Positions 1 to 4,014 of a DNA stretch of 64,000 nt are shown piece after piece. Under the pieces are notes generated by a model. It made no database searches and was not told where the DNA came from. It worked only from the letters and a program-made list of their open reading frames with translations. A program made the translations under genes and the position numbers. Source of the stretch: Cypionkella sp. (GTDB taxonomy: Bacteria; Pseudomonadota; Alphaproteobacteria; Rhodobacterales; Rhodobacteraceae); assembly GCA_025458525.1 (NCBI GenBank), contig JALOSF010000021.1:25751-89750 (forward strand). The letters run 5' to 3'. Position 1 is the stretch's first letter; every line of letters begins with the position of its first letter.

Positions 1-1004
1 CCGCGGAATCCGTGGCCGATCTGGCCGCTGTCACGGCGCGCATTCCGCGGCTGTTGGTGCACCTTGTGGCCGGGAACAACGCGCATGAGGTGGTCACGCG
101 CCTGATCACGGATATCGCCGACACCGTCACCCGCCGCCTGCTGGCGATGGCCGAGGCCGAGCTTGGCCCAAGCCCGGTGCCCTATCTTTGGTTGGCCTGC
201 GGCAGCCAAGGGCGGCAGGAACAGACGGGTGTGTCGGATCAGGACAATTGCCTGATGATCGATGACGCGGCGACGGATGCGGATATGGACTGGTTCCGCG
301 CGCTGGCACGCAAGGTCTGTGACGGGCTGGATGCCTGCGGCTATGTCTATTGCCCGGGCGACATGATGGCGACCAATCCACAGTGGTGCCAACCGATGCG
401 GGTCTGGCGCGACTATTTCCGCAAATGGGTGCAGGCCCCCGATCCGATGGCGCAGATGCTGGCCTCGGTGATGTTCGACCTGCGGCCGATCGGCGGGCAG
501 GCACGGCTGTTCAGCGACCTGCACCGCGAAACGCTGGATATGGCCGCGCGCAATTCGATCTTTGTCGCCCATATGATTGGCAACAGCCTGAAACATGCGC
601 CGCCCCTTGGCCTGTTGCGTGGATTTGCCACCATTCGGTCGGGCGAGCACAAGAACCACATCGACATGAAACTGAATGGTGTGGTGCCGGTCGTCGATCT
701 GGGCCGCATCTACGCGCTGATTGGCCAGCTGGAGCAGGTGAACACCCGTGCCCGGCTGGAAGCCGCCGAAGCCGCCGGCGTGATCAGCGTGGCAGGCGCG
801 CGCGATCTGATCGAGGCCTATGATCTGATCGCGCAGACCCGGCTTGAAAACCAGGCGCGGCTGGTCCGGTCTGGCCGGCGGCCCGATAACTTCCTTGCGC
901 CTTCCGACATGTCGGATTTCGAACGGAGTCACCTGCGCGACGCCTTTGTCGTCGTGCGCACCATGCAATCGGCCGTCGGGCAATCCCGCGGCACCCGGAG
1001 TTGA
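1..1004 (+). CDS. DUF294-type nucleotidyltransferase-like signalling protein, C-terminal part
   Basis: The reading frame is open to the left edge, so this is the C-terminal part of a longer protein; the GTG at 12 is only the first start inside the window. The core motif CGSQGRQEQTGVSDQDN matches the G-S-x-x-R-x-E...SD-x-D signature of GlnD-like (DUF294) nucleotidyltransferase domains, and the helical remainder fits the substrate-binding domain that normally follows. In this family cyclic-nucleotide-binding and CBS domains usually lie N-terminal, off the window here. It ends 3 bp before the next gene and heads a four-gene operon with a receiver and a PAS-exonuclease fusion. Relatives often sit beside sodium/solute symporters; that this one does is inference. 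The substrate is unknown. Confidence 0.8.
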   Translation, partial: AESVADLAAVTARIPRLLVHLVAGNNAHEVVTRLITDIADTVTRRLLAMAEAELGPSPVPYLWLACGSQGRQEQTGVSDQDNCLMIDDAATDADMDWFRALARKVCDGLDACGYVYCPGDMMATNPQWCQPMRVWRDYFRKWVQAPDPMAQMLASVMFDLRPIGGQARLFSDLHRETLDMAARNSIFVAHMIGNSLKHAPPLGLLRGFATIRSGEHKNHIDMKLNGVVPVVDLGRIYALIGQLEQVNTRARLEAAEAAGVISVAGARDLIEAYDLIAQTRLENQARLVRSGRRPDNFLAPSDMSDFERSHLRDAFVVVRTMQSAVGQSRGTRS

Positions 1005-1007
1005 CGA

Positions 1008-1529
1008 ATGGCCTTTGAACTTGTCGCTGCGATCATCGCCGCATTTGCCTTTGGGGGCATGGCGCATCTGCTGCGCCGCCTCGCGGGCCGTCGCCTTCCG
1101 GTCTGGACCGTGACGGCGGCCGCGGCGGTCGGGCTGATCGGCACCACGGTCTATCTTGAATACAACTGGTTCACCCGTGTCAGCGCCGAATTGCCCGAAG
1201 GGGTGAAGGTGGTTTGGCAGTCGGACGAAGTCTCGGCGCTGCGCCCATGGACGATGGTGGCCCCGATGACCACCCGCTTTGTGGCGATGGACACCCGCGA
1301 CATCGCGCAACACCCGAACAACGCCGCGCTGCGGATGGCAAAGCTGTTCAATTTCGCGCGGTGGCAGCCTGTGGGCGACACGCTGATGGTGTTCGATTGC
1401 GCGGGCCGGCGCCAAGTGCTTGTCACCGAAGGGATAGAGATCACCGAAGACGGAGAGCTCCGGGGCGGCACCTGGGTCGATGCCCCGGAAGGCGACGGAT
1501 TTCAGACAGCGGCTTGTGAGACGACCTGA
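1008..1529 (+). CDS. Two-TM membrane protein of signalling operon, unknown function
   Basis: This 173-aa protein has two hydrophobic segments at about residues 3-20 and 33-50 separated by a short basic loop (RRLAGRR). A soluble domain of about 120 residues follows (for example FNFARWQPVGDTLMVFDC). I do not recognise a family. The ATG lies 3 bp after the stop of the nucleotidyltransferase-like gene, and the receiver gene begins 14 bp downstream after a GGGAGG ribosome site, so it is almost certainly co-transcribed. It may anchor or sense for the cassette, but the sequence shows no catalytic motif. Confidence 0.75.
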   Translation: MAFELVAAIIAAFAFGGMAHLLRRLAGRRLPVWTVTAAAAVGLIGTTVYLEYNWFTRVSAELPEGVKVVWQSDEVSALRPWTMVAPMTTRFVAMDTRDIAQHPNNAALRMAKLFNFARWQPVGDTLMVFDCAGRRQVLVTEGIEITEDGELRGGTWVDAPEGDGFQTAACETT

Positions 1530-1543
1530 CAAGGGAGGCAGGG

Positions 1544-1942
1544 ATGACAACCCAAAAGGGAAGACGCCACCGCGTCCTGGTGGTCGAGGACGAGGACAAC
1601 ATCGCCCTTGCGCTGGATTATCTGATGACGCGCGAAGGCTATGACCATGACCGGATCGCCAACGGGGCCGACGCGCTTGCCCGCATCCGTGACACACGGC
1701 CTGACCTTGTCTTGCTGGATGTGATGCTGCCCGAAGTCTCTGGCTACGAGATCTGTCAGGGCGTGCGGATGGACCCGGCGCTGGCCGATGTGAAGATCCT
1801 GATGATGACGGCGCGCGGATCGTCCATCGAACGGCGCAAGGGTCTTGCGCTGGGGGCAGACGGGTTCATCTCGAAACCGTTCGAGCTGCGCGAACTGCGC
1901 GAGGAAGTGCGCAGGCTGCTCATCGCGGAGGGGCATGCGTGA
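1544..1942 (+). CDS. Stand-alone response regulator receiver protein
   Basis: A single receiver domain of 132 aa with no output domain. The acidic pair is in VVEDEDN (residues 13-19), the phospho-acceptor is D59 in LVLLDVMLP, and the conserved lysine is in the late motif FISKPF. All residues for phosphorylation are therefore present. Its TGA overlaps the GTG start of the downstream exonuclease fusion by 4 bp (GTGA), which points to translational coupling. The neighbouring kinase-like protein lacks a phosphorylatable histidine, so the phosphodonor must be elsewhere or the receiver acts through protein contact; that is inference. Confidence 0.9.
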   Translation: MTTQKGRRHRVLVVEDEDNIALALDYLMTREGYDHDRIANGADALARIRDTRPDLVLLDVMLPEVSGYEICQGVRMDPALADVKILMMTARGSSIERRKGLALGADGFISKPFELRELREEVRRLLIAEGHA

Positions 1943-4014
1943 TCGACGCCCTGTCGCTGCGCCTTCGGATTTTTCTGATCTTTGCCGGTCTGGCCGCGGC
2001 CGCGCTTTTTGCGCTGGCCGTGGGGCTTTGGCTTGGCTATCGGCGGCTGGGGGTGCCGGATCAGGCAGAGGCCTTTGTGCAGGGCGGCATCATTGCCGCC
2101 TTTGTCATTCTTGGGGTGGTGGCTTGGGTCTGGTATCTGTTCGACCTGAACGTGGCCAAACCCATCGACACGCTGGCCGGGGCCTTGCGTGCCCGCGCCC
2201 ATGCTGACGTCACGGGCGAGATCGACGCCCGCATTGCGCAGTATCTGGGCGATCTTGCCCCCGCGGCGATGGCCGCAGCCAGCAGCCTTGCCCAGACACG
2301 CAATGCGCTGGCCGAGGTGGTCGCGCGCGAGACGACGCGGCTCTCGGCGGAAAAGGCGCGGCTGGAGGCGCTGCTTTCGGATGTGCCGGTGGGGGTGCTT
2401 TTGTGCTCGGGCGATCACGCATTGGCCTTTTACAACGCCCAGGCCGTGGATCTGATGGCCGCTGGTCCGCAAAGCCCAGGCCTTGACCGGAACCTGTTCG
2501 ATTACCTGCGCGAGGGGCCGATCCGGCTTGCGCATGAGCGCCTCAGGGCCACCGGCGACCCGGAGGCGGCGTCCGATCTGCTTTGTTCGACGTTGCAGGG
2601 GGCGCGGGTTTTGGCTGCGCGGATGCGGTTGATCGGGGGGGGCGAGGCGGCGGTGCCGGGCTATGTGCTGACCTTGCGGGATGTGACCGCCGATCTTGCC
2701 GCCCAGTCCCGGCGCGAGGCCTTGCTGAGCGATGTGTTCGACCGTCTGCGCAGGCCCGCGGCCAATCTGTCCACCATTCTGGCCGCGATCCCCGAAGGCG
2801 TTCCGGTCCCCGACCGGCTGAATACCGCGCTGCACGAGGAAGTTCGGGCGTTGACCGCGGCAATCACCGATCTGTCGCGCCGCCACGAAGACGGGCGCGG
2901 CGATGGCTGGCCACTTGCGATGACGCGAGCCTCGGACCTTCTTGACGGCTTGCGCGCCCGGATGGAGGCCGAGGGGCAGACCGCGCAGGTCGAGGCGGCG
3001 GAACTCTTGTTGCGGTGCAACGGGTTCGAGATGATCGCCCTTCTTGCCGGGTTGACCGAGGCCATGGCCCGCGAGGGCATGGCCCGCGACTTTCGGCTGC
3101 GGGTCGAGGAGGAAGGCGGTGGCGCGCTGATCCGGGTGCTGTGGGACGGCCCCCCGCTTGCCATGCGGCGGCTGGAGGCCTGGCTGGACCAGCCGCTGGA
3201 ACCGGGGCTGGCCGATGTGCGCCGTCGGTCGGTTCTGGCGACCCATGCGACGGAAATCTGGCCGGAACCGGCGGGGCCGGGGGGGAACTGTCTTTGCCTG
3301 CCCATTCCACAGGCGCGCCGGGTGGTCCGCCGCCCGACCCCCATCGCGCGCCCCGTGGTCTATGACTTTGACCTGCTGTCCAAAACCCGCAACGCCGCCG
3401 TGCAGGACGCGCGCCTTCAGGATCTGACCTATGTGGTGTTTGATACCGAAACCACCGGCCTGCTGCCCGCACAGGGTGACGAGATTGTGCAGATTGCTGC
3501 CGTTCGCATCGTCAATGGGCGCCGAATCGAAGGCGAGGTTTTTGACACCCTGGTCAATCCCCGCAGGCCCATCCCGCTGTCATCGACCGAGGTGCATGGC
3601 ATCACCGGCGCGATGGTGGCCGATGCGCCGATGATCGAGGAGGTGGCGGCGCGCTTTCACCGATTCGCGCAAGGCGCGGTTCTGGTGGCCCATAACGCGC
3701 CCTTCGACATGGAATTTCTGCGCCGCGTCGAACCCGCGCTTGGGCTGCGTTTTGACAATCCGATTCTGGACACTGTGTTGCTCTCGGCCGTGGTCTATGG
3801 GCAGCATGAGGTGCACAGTCTTGATGCCCTGACCCATCGTCTGGGCATCACCATTCCCGAAGAAGCCCGCCATACCGCGATCGGCGATACAATCGCCACC
3901 GCCGAAGCCTTTTTGAAGCTGATGCCGATGTTGCAGGGGCGCGGGCTGCCCACCTTTGGCGCCGTGCTGACCGAGGTGCGCCGTCATGGCCGGTTGCTCA
4001 GGGATCTGAACTGA
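1939..4014 (+). CDS. Membrane PAS / degenerate histidine kinase / DEDDh 3'-5' exonuclease fusion
   Basis: This 691-aa protein starts at a GTG overlapping the receiver gene. Two TM helices (about residues 8-30 and 48-72) are followed by a HAMP-like linker and a PAS-like domain (about 145-255). A DHp-like helix follows in which the usual H-E/D-L-R-x-P reads DRLRRP (residues 268-273), so the phospho-histidine is absent. The ATPase-like stretch (about 345-470) lacks a clear N-box asparagine and G boxes. The C-terminus (about 495-680) is a DnaQ-type exonuclease with D502 and E504 in FDTETTG, D590 in HNAPFD and H645/D650 in HTAIGD, so all five DEDDh residues are present. A terminator follows. Such exonucleases are known near DUF294 proteins and symporters, but their role is not established. 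Confidence 0.85.
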   Translation: MIDALSLRLRIFLIFAGLAAAALFALAVGLWLGYRRLGVPDQAEAFVQGGIIAAFVILGVVAWVWYLFDLNVAKPIDTLAGALRARAHADVTGEIDARIAQYLGDLAPAAMAAASSLAQTRNALAEVVARETTRLSAEKARLEALLSDVPVGVLLCSGDHALAFYNAQAVDLMAAGPQSPGLDRNLFDYLREGPIRLAHERLRATGDPEAASDLLCSTLQGARVLAARMRLIGGGEAAVPGYVLTLRDVTADLAAQSRREALLSDVFDRLRRPAANLSTILAAIPEGVPVPDRLNTALHEEVRALTAAITDLSRRHEDGRGDGWPLAMTRASDLLDGLRARMEAEGQTAQVEAAELLLRCNGFEMIALLAGLTEAMAREGMARDFRLRVEEEGGGALIRVLWDGPPLAMRRLEAWLDQPLEPGLADVRRRSVLATHATEIWPEPAGPGGNCLCLPIPQARRVVRRPTPIARPVVYDFDLLSKTRNAAVQDARLQDLTYVVFDTETTGLLPAQGDEIVQIAAVRIVNGRRIEGEVFDTLVNPRRPIPLSSTEVHGITGAMVADAPMIEEVAARFHRFAQGAVLVAHNAPFDMEFLRRVEPALGLRFDNPILDTVLLSAVVYGQHEVHSLDALTHRLGITIPEEARHTAIGDTIATAEAFLKLMPMLQGRGLPTFGAVLTEVRRHGRLLRDLN

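Follow-up and report, generated by a model that had tools for sequence, protein, structure and literature searches.

A membrane exonuclease whose dead kinase module is a candidate receptor for the neighbouring response regulator

Why would a membrane protein that ends in an exonuclease carry a histidine-kinase-like module stripped of its phospho-acceptor histidine, and why is it encoded next to an intact response regulator (RR)? The question is raised by the first 4,014 nucleotides of a 64,000-nucleotide stretch of Cypionkella sp. (contig JALOSF010000021.1 of assembly GCA_025458525.1, positions 25,751 to 89,750; the window), where the end of a DUF294 nucleotidyltransferase gene is followed by genes for a 173-aa protein, a single-domain RR and a fusion that joins sensory, kinase-like and exonuclease parts. 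From sequence comparison we propose that the fusion is a membrane-bound 3'-5' exonuclease whose kinase module has turned into a receptor for the neighbouring RR, a mechanism to which, taken as a whole, we assign a probability of about 0.55.

The kinase-like module of the fusion protein

The fusion and the RR comprise the following features; TM stands for transmembrane and AF2 for AlphaFold2.

1544..1942, + strand: single-domain RR (receiver), PF00072 E 1.2e-25, phospho-acceptor D59 at 1718-1720
1939..4014, + strand: fusion, 691 aa, with TM hairpin, HAMP-like, PAS, pseudo-histidine-kinase and DEDDh 3'-5' exonuclease parts
2371..2682, + strand: PAS region, about residues 145-248, from the AF2 strand/helix pattern; best Foldseek matches are PAS-kinase structures
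2686..2892, + strand: pseudo-DHp hairpin, residues 250-318, with AF2 helices 250-283 and 292-318
2740-2742 and 2749-2751, + strand: D268 at the His site and R271 at +3, placed by alignment
2917..3321, + strand: degenerate ATPase-like (CA) domain, residues 327-461; N and G boxes lacking
3394..4008, + strand: DEDDh exonuclease domain, residues 486-690, RNase_T E 2e-38, with D502, E504, D590, H645 and D650

Both the D-E-D-H-D pentad and a DnaQ-like fold are present in the fusion, which fits a DEDDh 3'-5' exonuclease of the RNase_T family, and the Foldseek matches of this domain include the PolC, DnaQ and RNase T exonucleases. The pentad, called intact in an earlier note made from the window's letters, has been lost in no close homologue: it is conserved in 50/51 Rhodobacteraceae proteins and is invariant among 73 relatives that carry the kinase-like module (long forms), save one sequence gapped at three sites. 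The exception among the 51 is a degenerate paralogue (L061 10995-12296, genome G067) in which D502, D590, H645 and D650 are replaced; it sits directly after acs-adk, on a contig shared with a symporter-kinase and its RR. Truncation or a sequencing artefact is ruled out for the fusion gene, which is full length in dozens of genomes.

Pfam run on the single fusion sequence returned no HisKA or HATPase_c match. The AF2 model of the fusion (mean predicted local distance difference test, pLDDT, 79.5; predicted template modelling score 0.40, which leaves the domain arrangement unsure) contains a two-helix hairpin and a CA-like sandwich, and Foldseek matches the module to WalK, a VicK-like kinase, ThkA and HK853. 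A profile of 56 modules matches kinases in the Protein Data Bank (PDB), DivL among them (E 2.8e-10), and its alignment by hhalign to the cores of active symporter-kinases gives 99.3% and E 1.7e-20. All of these comparisons (AF2/Foldseek, PDB profile search, hhalign) yield a DHp-CA fold.

No phospho-acceptor histidine is present in the alignment of long forms from several phyla (0/73). The residue at its site is Glu in 42 and Asp in 21 (63/73 Glu/Asp), and 66/73 retain the Arg at +3. The N box and the G1/G2 boxes are missing both from the family alignments and when the profile is aligned with active kinases, and HATPase_c was matched weakly in only 3 of the 56 modules. The earlier note had read the loss of the phospho-histidine (DRLRRP) and of the ATP-binding boxes from this one sequence; both losses are real and conserved, no relative has an intact DHp His, and the modelling confirms a kinase fold from which the N/G boxes are gone. 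Lacking phospho-His and N/G boxes, the module does not qualify as a functional histidine kinase despite its DHp-CA fold. No active kinase came up among the aligned long forms when more distant relatives were sought across the class and in the collection of GTDB genomes. That the module is a true histidine-kinase fold, catalytically dead, is thus well supported by comparison, and so, across phyla, is the earlier picture of a membrane-bound sensory protein that has an inactive kinase module, a nuclease as its output and a nucleotidyltransferase as its neighbour.

Loss of the response regulator with the docking hairpin

The acidic pocket, D59, Thr/Ser and Lys of the RR are conserved in 72/72 sequences (Asp, Asp and Lys in all; Thr in 65, Ser in 7), extending to the family what had been noticed earlier for the phospho-acceptor Asp of this receiver. 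Since these catalytic residues are kept and the neighbouring kinase is dead, the RR should be phosphorylated by a kinase in trans.

Among 51 Rhodobacteraceae proteins, the RR gene lies directly upstream in 33/33 loci with a full hairpin and in 0/18 loci without one. These 18 divide into 4 with a shortened hairpin and 14 with no kinase module, and the 4 keep the CA-like part yet lack the RR. On a tree that leaves out the kinase columns, about five hairpin losses are needed, each accompanied by loss of the RR. The association extends to a wider set of named alpha-, beta-, gamma- and deltaproteobacterial, Nitrospirota and Acidobacteriota genomes, where the RR is adjacent in 43/51 loci with the hairpin and the Arg as compared to 1/7 without (Fisher p 0.00045, uncorrected for relatedness). 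Four deltaproteobacterial long forms (L189, L191, L231 and L232) all have Gln in place of the docking Arg, and none has an adjacent receiver gene.

Operon conservation was rejected as the sole cause of RR adjacency, because the RR is missing from just those loci that have lost or shortened the hairpin, while the genes for the 173-aa protein, DUF294 and the sodium/solute symporter (SSS) of the operon remain. The joint loss of the RR and the dead-kinase hairpin is the strongest functional signal in these comparisons and points to a link newly found here. The receiver and the dead kinase had been taken as separate oddities in the earlier note; both are real, but they are lost together.

The same losses could be read as decay, the kinase-like module being a relic without a signalling role and the RR a bystander removed by neutral deletion. 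Many Rhodobacteraceae have indeed lost the module and the RR and retain the rest of the operon. However, the module is uniformly dead across phyla, Glu/Asp and Arg being conserved at fixed positions, the RR retains its catalytic residues, and the RR is gone also from the four loci in which only the hairpin is shortened and the CA-like part is kept. We consider such decay quite improbable.

By analogy, the fusion and its RR would work most like DivL and DivK of Caulobacter (PMC4211667), with a nuclease fused on. Common to DivL and the fusion are a dead kinase with its His replaced, one or more PAS domains before DHp-CA, and an Arg at +3. In DivL this residue is R553, three positions past the replaced His and equivalent to R271, and it is required for binding of phosphorylated DivK (DivK~P) (PMC4211667). 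The fusion combines a dead DHp site, a conserved RR-docking surface and a co-occurring single-domain RR whose presence tracks the receptor; as for DivL, a separate kinase would phosphorylate the RR, and binding is predicted here from sequence. DivL has Tyr at the His site and passes its signal to the kinase CckA, whereas the fusion has Glu/Asp at the site, an attached exonuclease and a place in a metabolic operon. Docking of the RR on the pseudokinase hairpin is well supported by comparison: the phosphorylated RR (RR~P) would dock on the pseudo-DHp hairpin as DivK~P does on DivL, and docking together with PAS/TM input may then alter exonuclease activity.

The operon and its metabolic setting

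The window edge truncates an operon, of which positions 1-4014 are the 3' half. The order conserved in Rhodobacteraceae is acs-adk-DUF4212-SSS symporter-DUF294-2-TM protein-RR-fusion, the last with TM-HAMP-PAS-kinase-like-DEDDh exonuclease parts. Coordinates marked L003 refer to contig stretch L003 (G000:C7:14000-33000), the others to the window.

L003 6041-8005: acs, acetate-CoA ligase by family model
L003 8010-8693: adk, adenylate kinase by family model
L003 8754-9011: DUF4212 gene, symporter small subunit TIGR03647
L003 9026-10873: SSS symporter, VC_2705-family symporter TIGR03648
L003 10932-12755: full-length DUF294 gene, followed by the 173-aa protein, RR and fusion genes
3..1004, + strand: 3' part of the DUF294 gene, Pfam PF03445 E 5.8e-50 and PF10335 (DUF294_C)
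1008..1529, + strand: 173-aa protein of no known family, with two predicted TM helices, a beta-rich domain and invariant C131 and C170
4070-4145, strand opposite to the operon: tRNA-Ala, just downstream

The four genes of the window do overlap or abut, as had been reported: DUF294 ends at 1004, the 173-aa gene spans 1008-1529, the RR gene spans 1544-1942, and the fusion (1939-4014) overlaps it by 4 bp. The genes are real, but the four-gene operon drawn from them was incomplete, since acs, adk, DUF4212 and SSS lie upstream of the window edge, and the metabolic setting, uptake and activation of a short monocarboxylate, was missed because it is outside the window. A check of gene order across Rhodobacteraceae, proposed in the earlier note, found it non-random and kept in nearly all neighbourhoods read (n = 41). 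With acs, adk and a VC_2705-type symporter all within the same operon, the locus would be the regulatory end of an operon that serves to take up and activate acetate or some similar short monocarboxylate, a claim we hold with the same slight preponderance as the mechanism to which it belongs.

In P. putida the pair pp_0354/pp_0353 (a DUF294-type CBS protein and an RNase_T exonuclease) is a target of MxtR/ErdR, and growth on pyruvate, though not on acetate, suffers when the exonuclease or actP-I is lost (PMC9927547). Pflu5625, a cNMP-CBS-nucleotidyltransferase, belongs to the CrbS/R regulon (PMC5715377). These MxtR/ErdR and CrbS/R regulon data tie the DUF294/exonuclease pair to monocarboxylate uptake. 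The P. putida genes form the same two-gene pair as those studied here, tied to actP and monocarboxylate use; compared by description, pp_0353 is of the RNase_T family only, the paper reporting neither a PAS or kinase-like module nor a receiver partner (PMC9927547).

The candidate kinase and possible outputs

Our candidate for the kinase acting on the exonuclease-linked RR, held with moderate confidence, is a symporter-histidine kinase of the CrbS type whose gene lies elsewhere in the genome. Such a symporter-kinase with intact boxes occurs in 47/49 genomes checked, the window's genome included. There its sequence is divided between the ends of two contigs (L260 1475-1882 and L261 1-2367; G000:C125, C67) and has its own single-domain RR upstream. 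Clusters shared by the RR, exonuclease and symporter-kinase are common in alpha-, beta- and gammaproteobacteria outside Rhodobacteraceae. One cluster holds the symporter-kinase, RR and pseudokinase-exonuclease in genomes G186, G222, G367, G266 and G023; in G214 a distance of a few kilobases separates the symporter-kinase and its RR from the exonuclease. In beta- and gammaproteobacteria the order symporter-kinase-RR-exonuclease recurs, often with DUF294 next. By manual count the symporter-kinase adjoins the exonuclease in about 23/80 named loci.

A symporter-histidine kinase is likewise found in the CrbS/CrbR (MxtR/ErdR) system, whose targets include acs, actP, DUF294 and exonuclease genes (PMC5715377, PMC8402216, PMC7918813). 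CrbR is a LuxR-type transcription factor, whereas the RRs here, beside the exonuclease and beside the symporter-kinase, are single-domain, and MxtR (CrbS) has a C-terminal receiver, whereas the symporter-kinases read here end after the CA domain. The genome has the symporter-kinase with intact boxes, but the RRs next to it and to the exonuclease carry no LuxR-type output, and the set does not qualify as a CrbS/CrbR pair.

Several observations weigh against the proposed mechanism. All 12/12 symporter-kinase loci read in Rhodobacteraceae are separate from the operon and have their own single-domain RR; with an RR of its own adjacent, the symporter-kinase need not use the exonuclease-linked one, and for this reason we only infer its phosphorylation of the latter. 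A sign test on the joint losses gives p 0.25 and is underpowered, with only three contrasts on well-supported branches. No adjoining RR is present in 8/51 wider-set loci with hairpin and Arg, and exonuclease short forms exist without any kinase module. Mutants of the P. putida DUF294/exonuclease pair grow normally on acetate (PMC9927547).

The first of these points suits another explanation, in which binding of the RR to the pseudokinase does not depend on phosphorylation, or the RR gets its phosphate from another kinase or a small phosphodonor, and the symporter-kinase signals only via a paralogous RR. The RRs of the 12 loci, and of the window's genome too, fall in a sister clade to the exonuclease-linked RRs (SH-aLRT 91), and the two Rhodobacteraceae clades look as after a duplication; rows L061 and L070 of this RR tree are not exonuclease-linked RRs and were ignored. 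In other families, however, the symporter-kinase and exonuclease flank one RR, which they would have to share if both use it; we think this explanation somewhat unlikely.

In the mechanism we favor, the exonuclease and DUF294 might act in a common pathway through which the symporter or Acs is adjusted. DUF294 might nucleotidylate a target protein from which the DEDDh enzyme removes the nucleoside monophosphate (NMP), or particular RNAs might be turned over. As outputs, protein de-nucleotidylation, RNA turnover and a small-nucleotide signal are each possible. DEDDh enzymes release 5'-NMP, so removal of a protein-bound NMP placed by DUF294 is chemically possible. Protein nucleotidylation of the GlnD/GlnE type is a known precedent and DUF294 has a Pol-beta-type nucleotidyltransferase motif, so that writer/eraser logic is conceivable; a DEDDh exonuclease as remover would be new. 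We regard as unlikely the complete chain in which the symporter-kinase senses nutrient flux, RR~P is formed, the pseudokinase gates an exonuclease that erases DUF294-placed NMP, and acetate/pyruvate uptake or activation comes under reversible control.

The full DUF294 protein (607 aa) has domain matches for a cNMP-binding domain, two CBS domains, the nucleotidyltransferase and a substrate-binding domain. In its motif GS..R.E..D.D, the G, S, R, D, D and N positions are kept in 100/100 homologues and E in 99. As a possible reading, the earlier note had put forward a signalling system in which a nucleotide or short oligonucleotide is made and degraded, roles that would fall to DUF294 and the exonuclease. 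The two genes are tightly linked (DUF294 adjoins the exonuclease in about 21/27 alphaproteobacterial DUF294 loci by manual count), the nucleotidyltransferase motif and the DEDDh pentad are both intact, and the cNMP and CBS domains of DUF294 could bind a ligand; but no dedicated receptor for such a signal turned up in the cluster, and the usual substrates of DEDDh enzymes are the 3' ends of RNA or DNA. This proposal is a long shot.

Alternatively, the exonuclease may trim or degrade specific carbon-metabolism mRNAs, its link to DUF294 reflecting shared regulation only. Its domain is of the RNase_T type, RNase T is among its Foldseek matches, and the authors of PMC9927547 speculated along these lines for pp_0353. 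Such a role is tentatively possible, but the protein has no RNA-binding domain and is anchored in the membrane, and the near-obligate DUF294 neighbourhood is left unexplained.

We found no description of the symporter-kinase-RR-pseudokinase-exonuclease set in the open-access literature, most subscription journals being outside the scope of the search. The findings suggest an undescribed on/off switch for a nuclease, via a dead sensor kinase, in a widespread bacterial cluster. If this is true, the DivL principle would reach beyond a single cell-cycle protein and take in a widespread family in metabolic signalling that has an enzyme directly attached. The reading also offers testable partners for DUF294 and the RNase_T exonuclease, which lack a known mechanism in the pseudomonad acetate/pyruvate regulon, and a proposed output for symporter-kinases whose regulators carry no DNA-binding domain.

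The 173-aa protein always lies between DUF294 and the RR/exonuclease in the operon family studied. Pfam and a PDB fold search gave no confident match for it; its beta-rich domain is confidently predicted (AF2 mean pLDDT 96.3), and C131 and C170 are invariant in its alignment (n = 60). In L094 and L095 (G321 and G415) a DEDDh exonuclease is fused to a multi-TM protein, named EamA/DMT-like by eye, and in G321 this transporter-like fusion adjoins a DUF294 gene.

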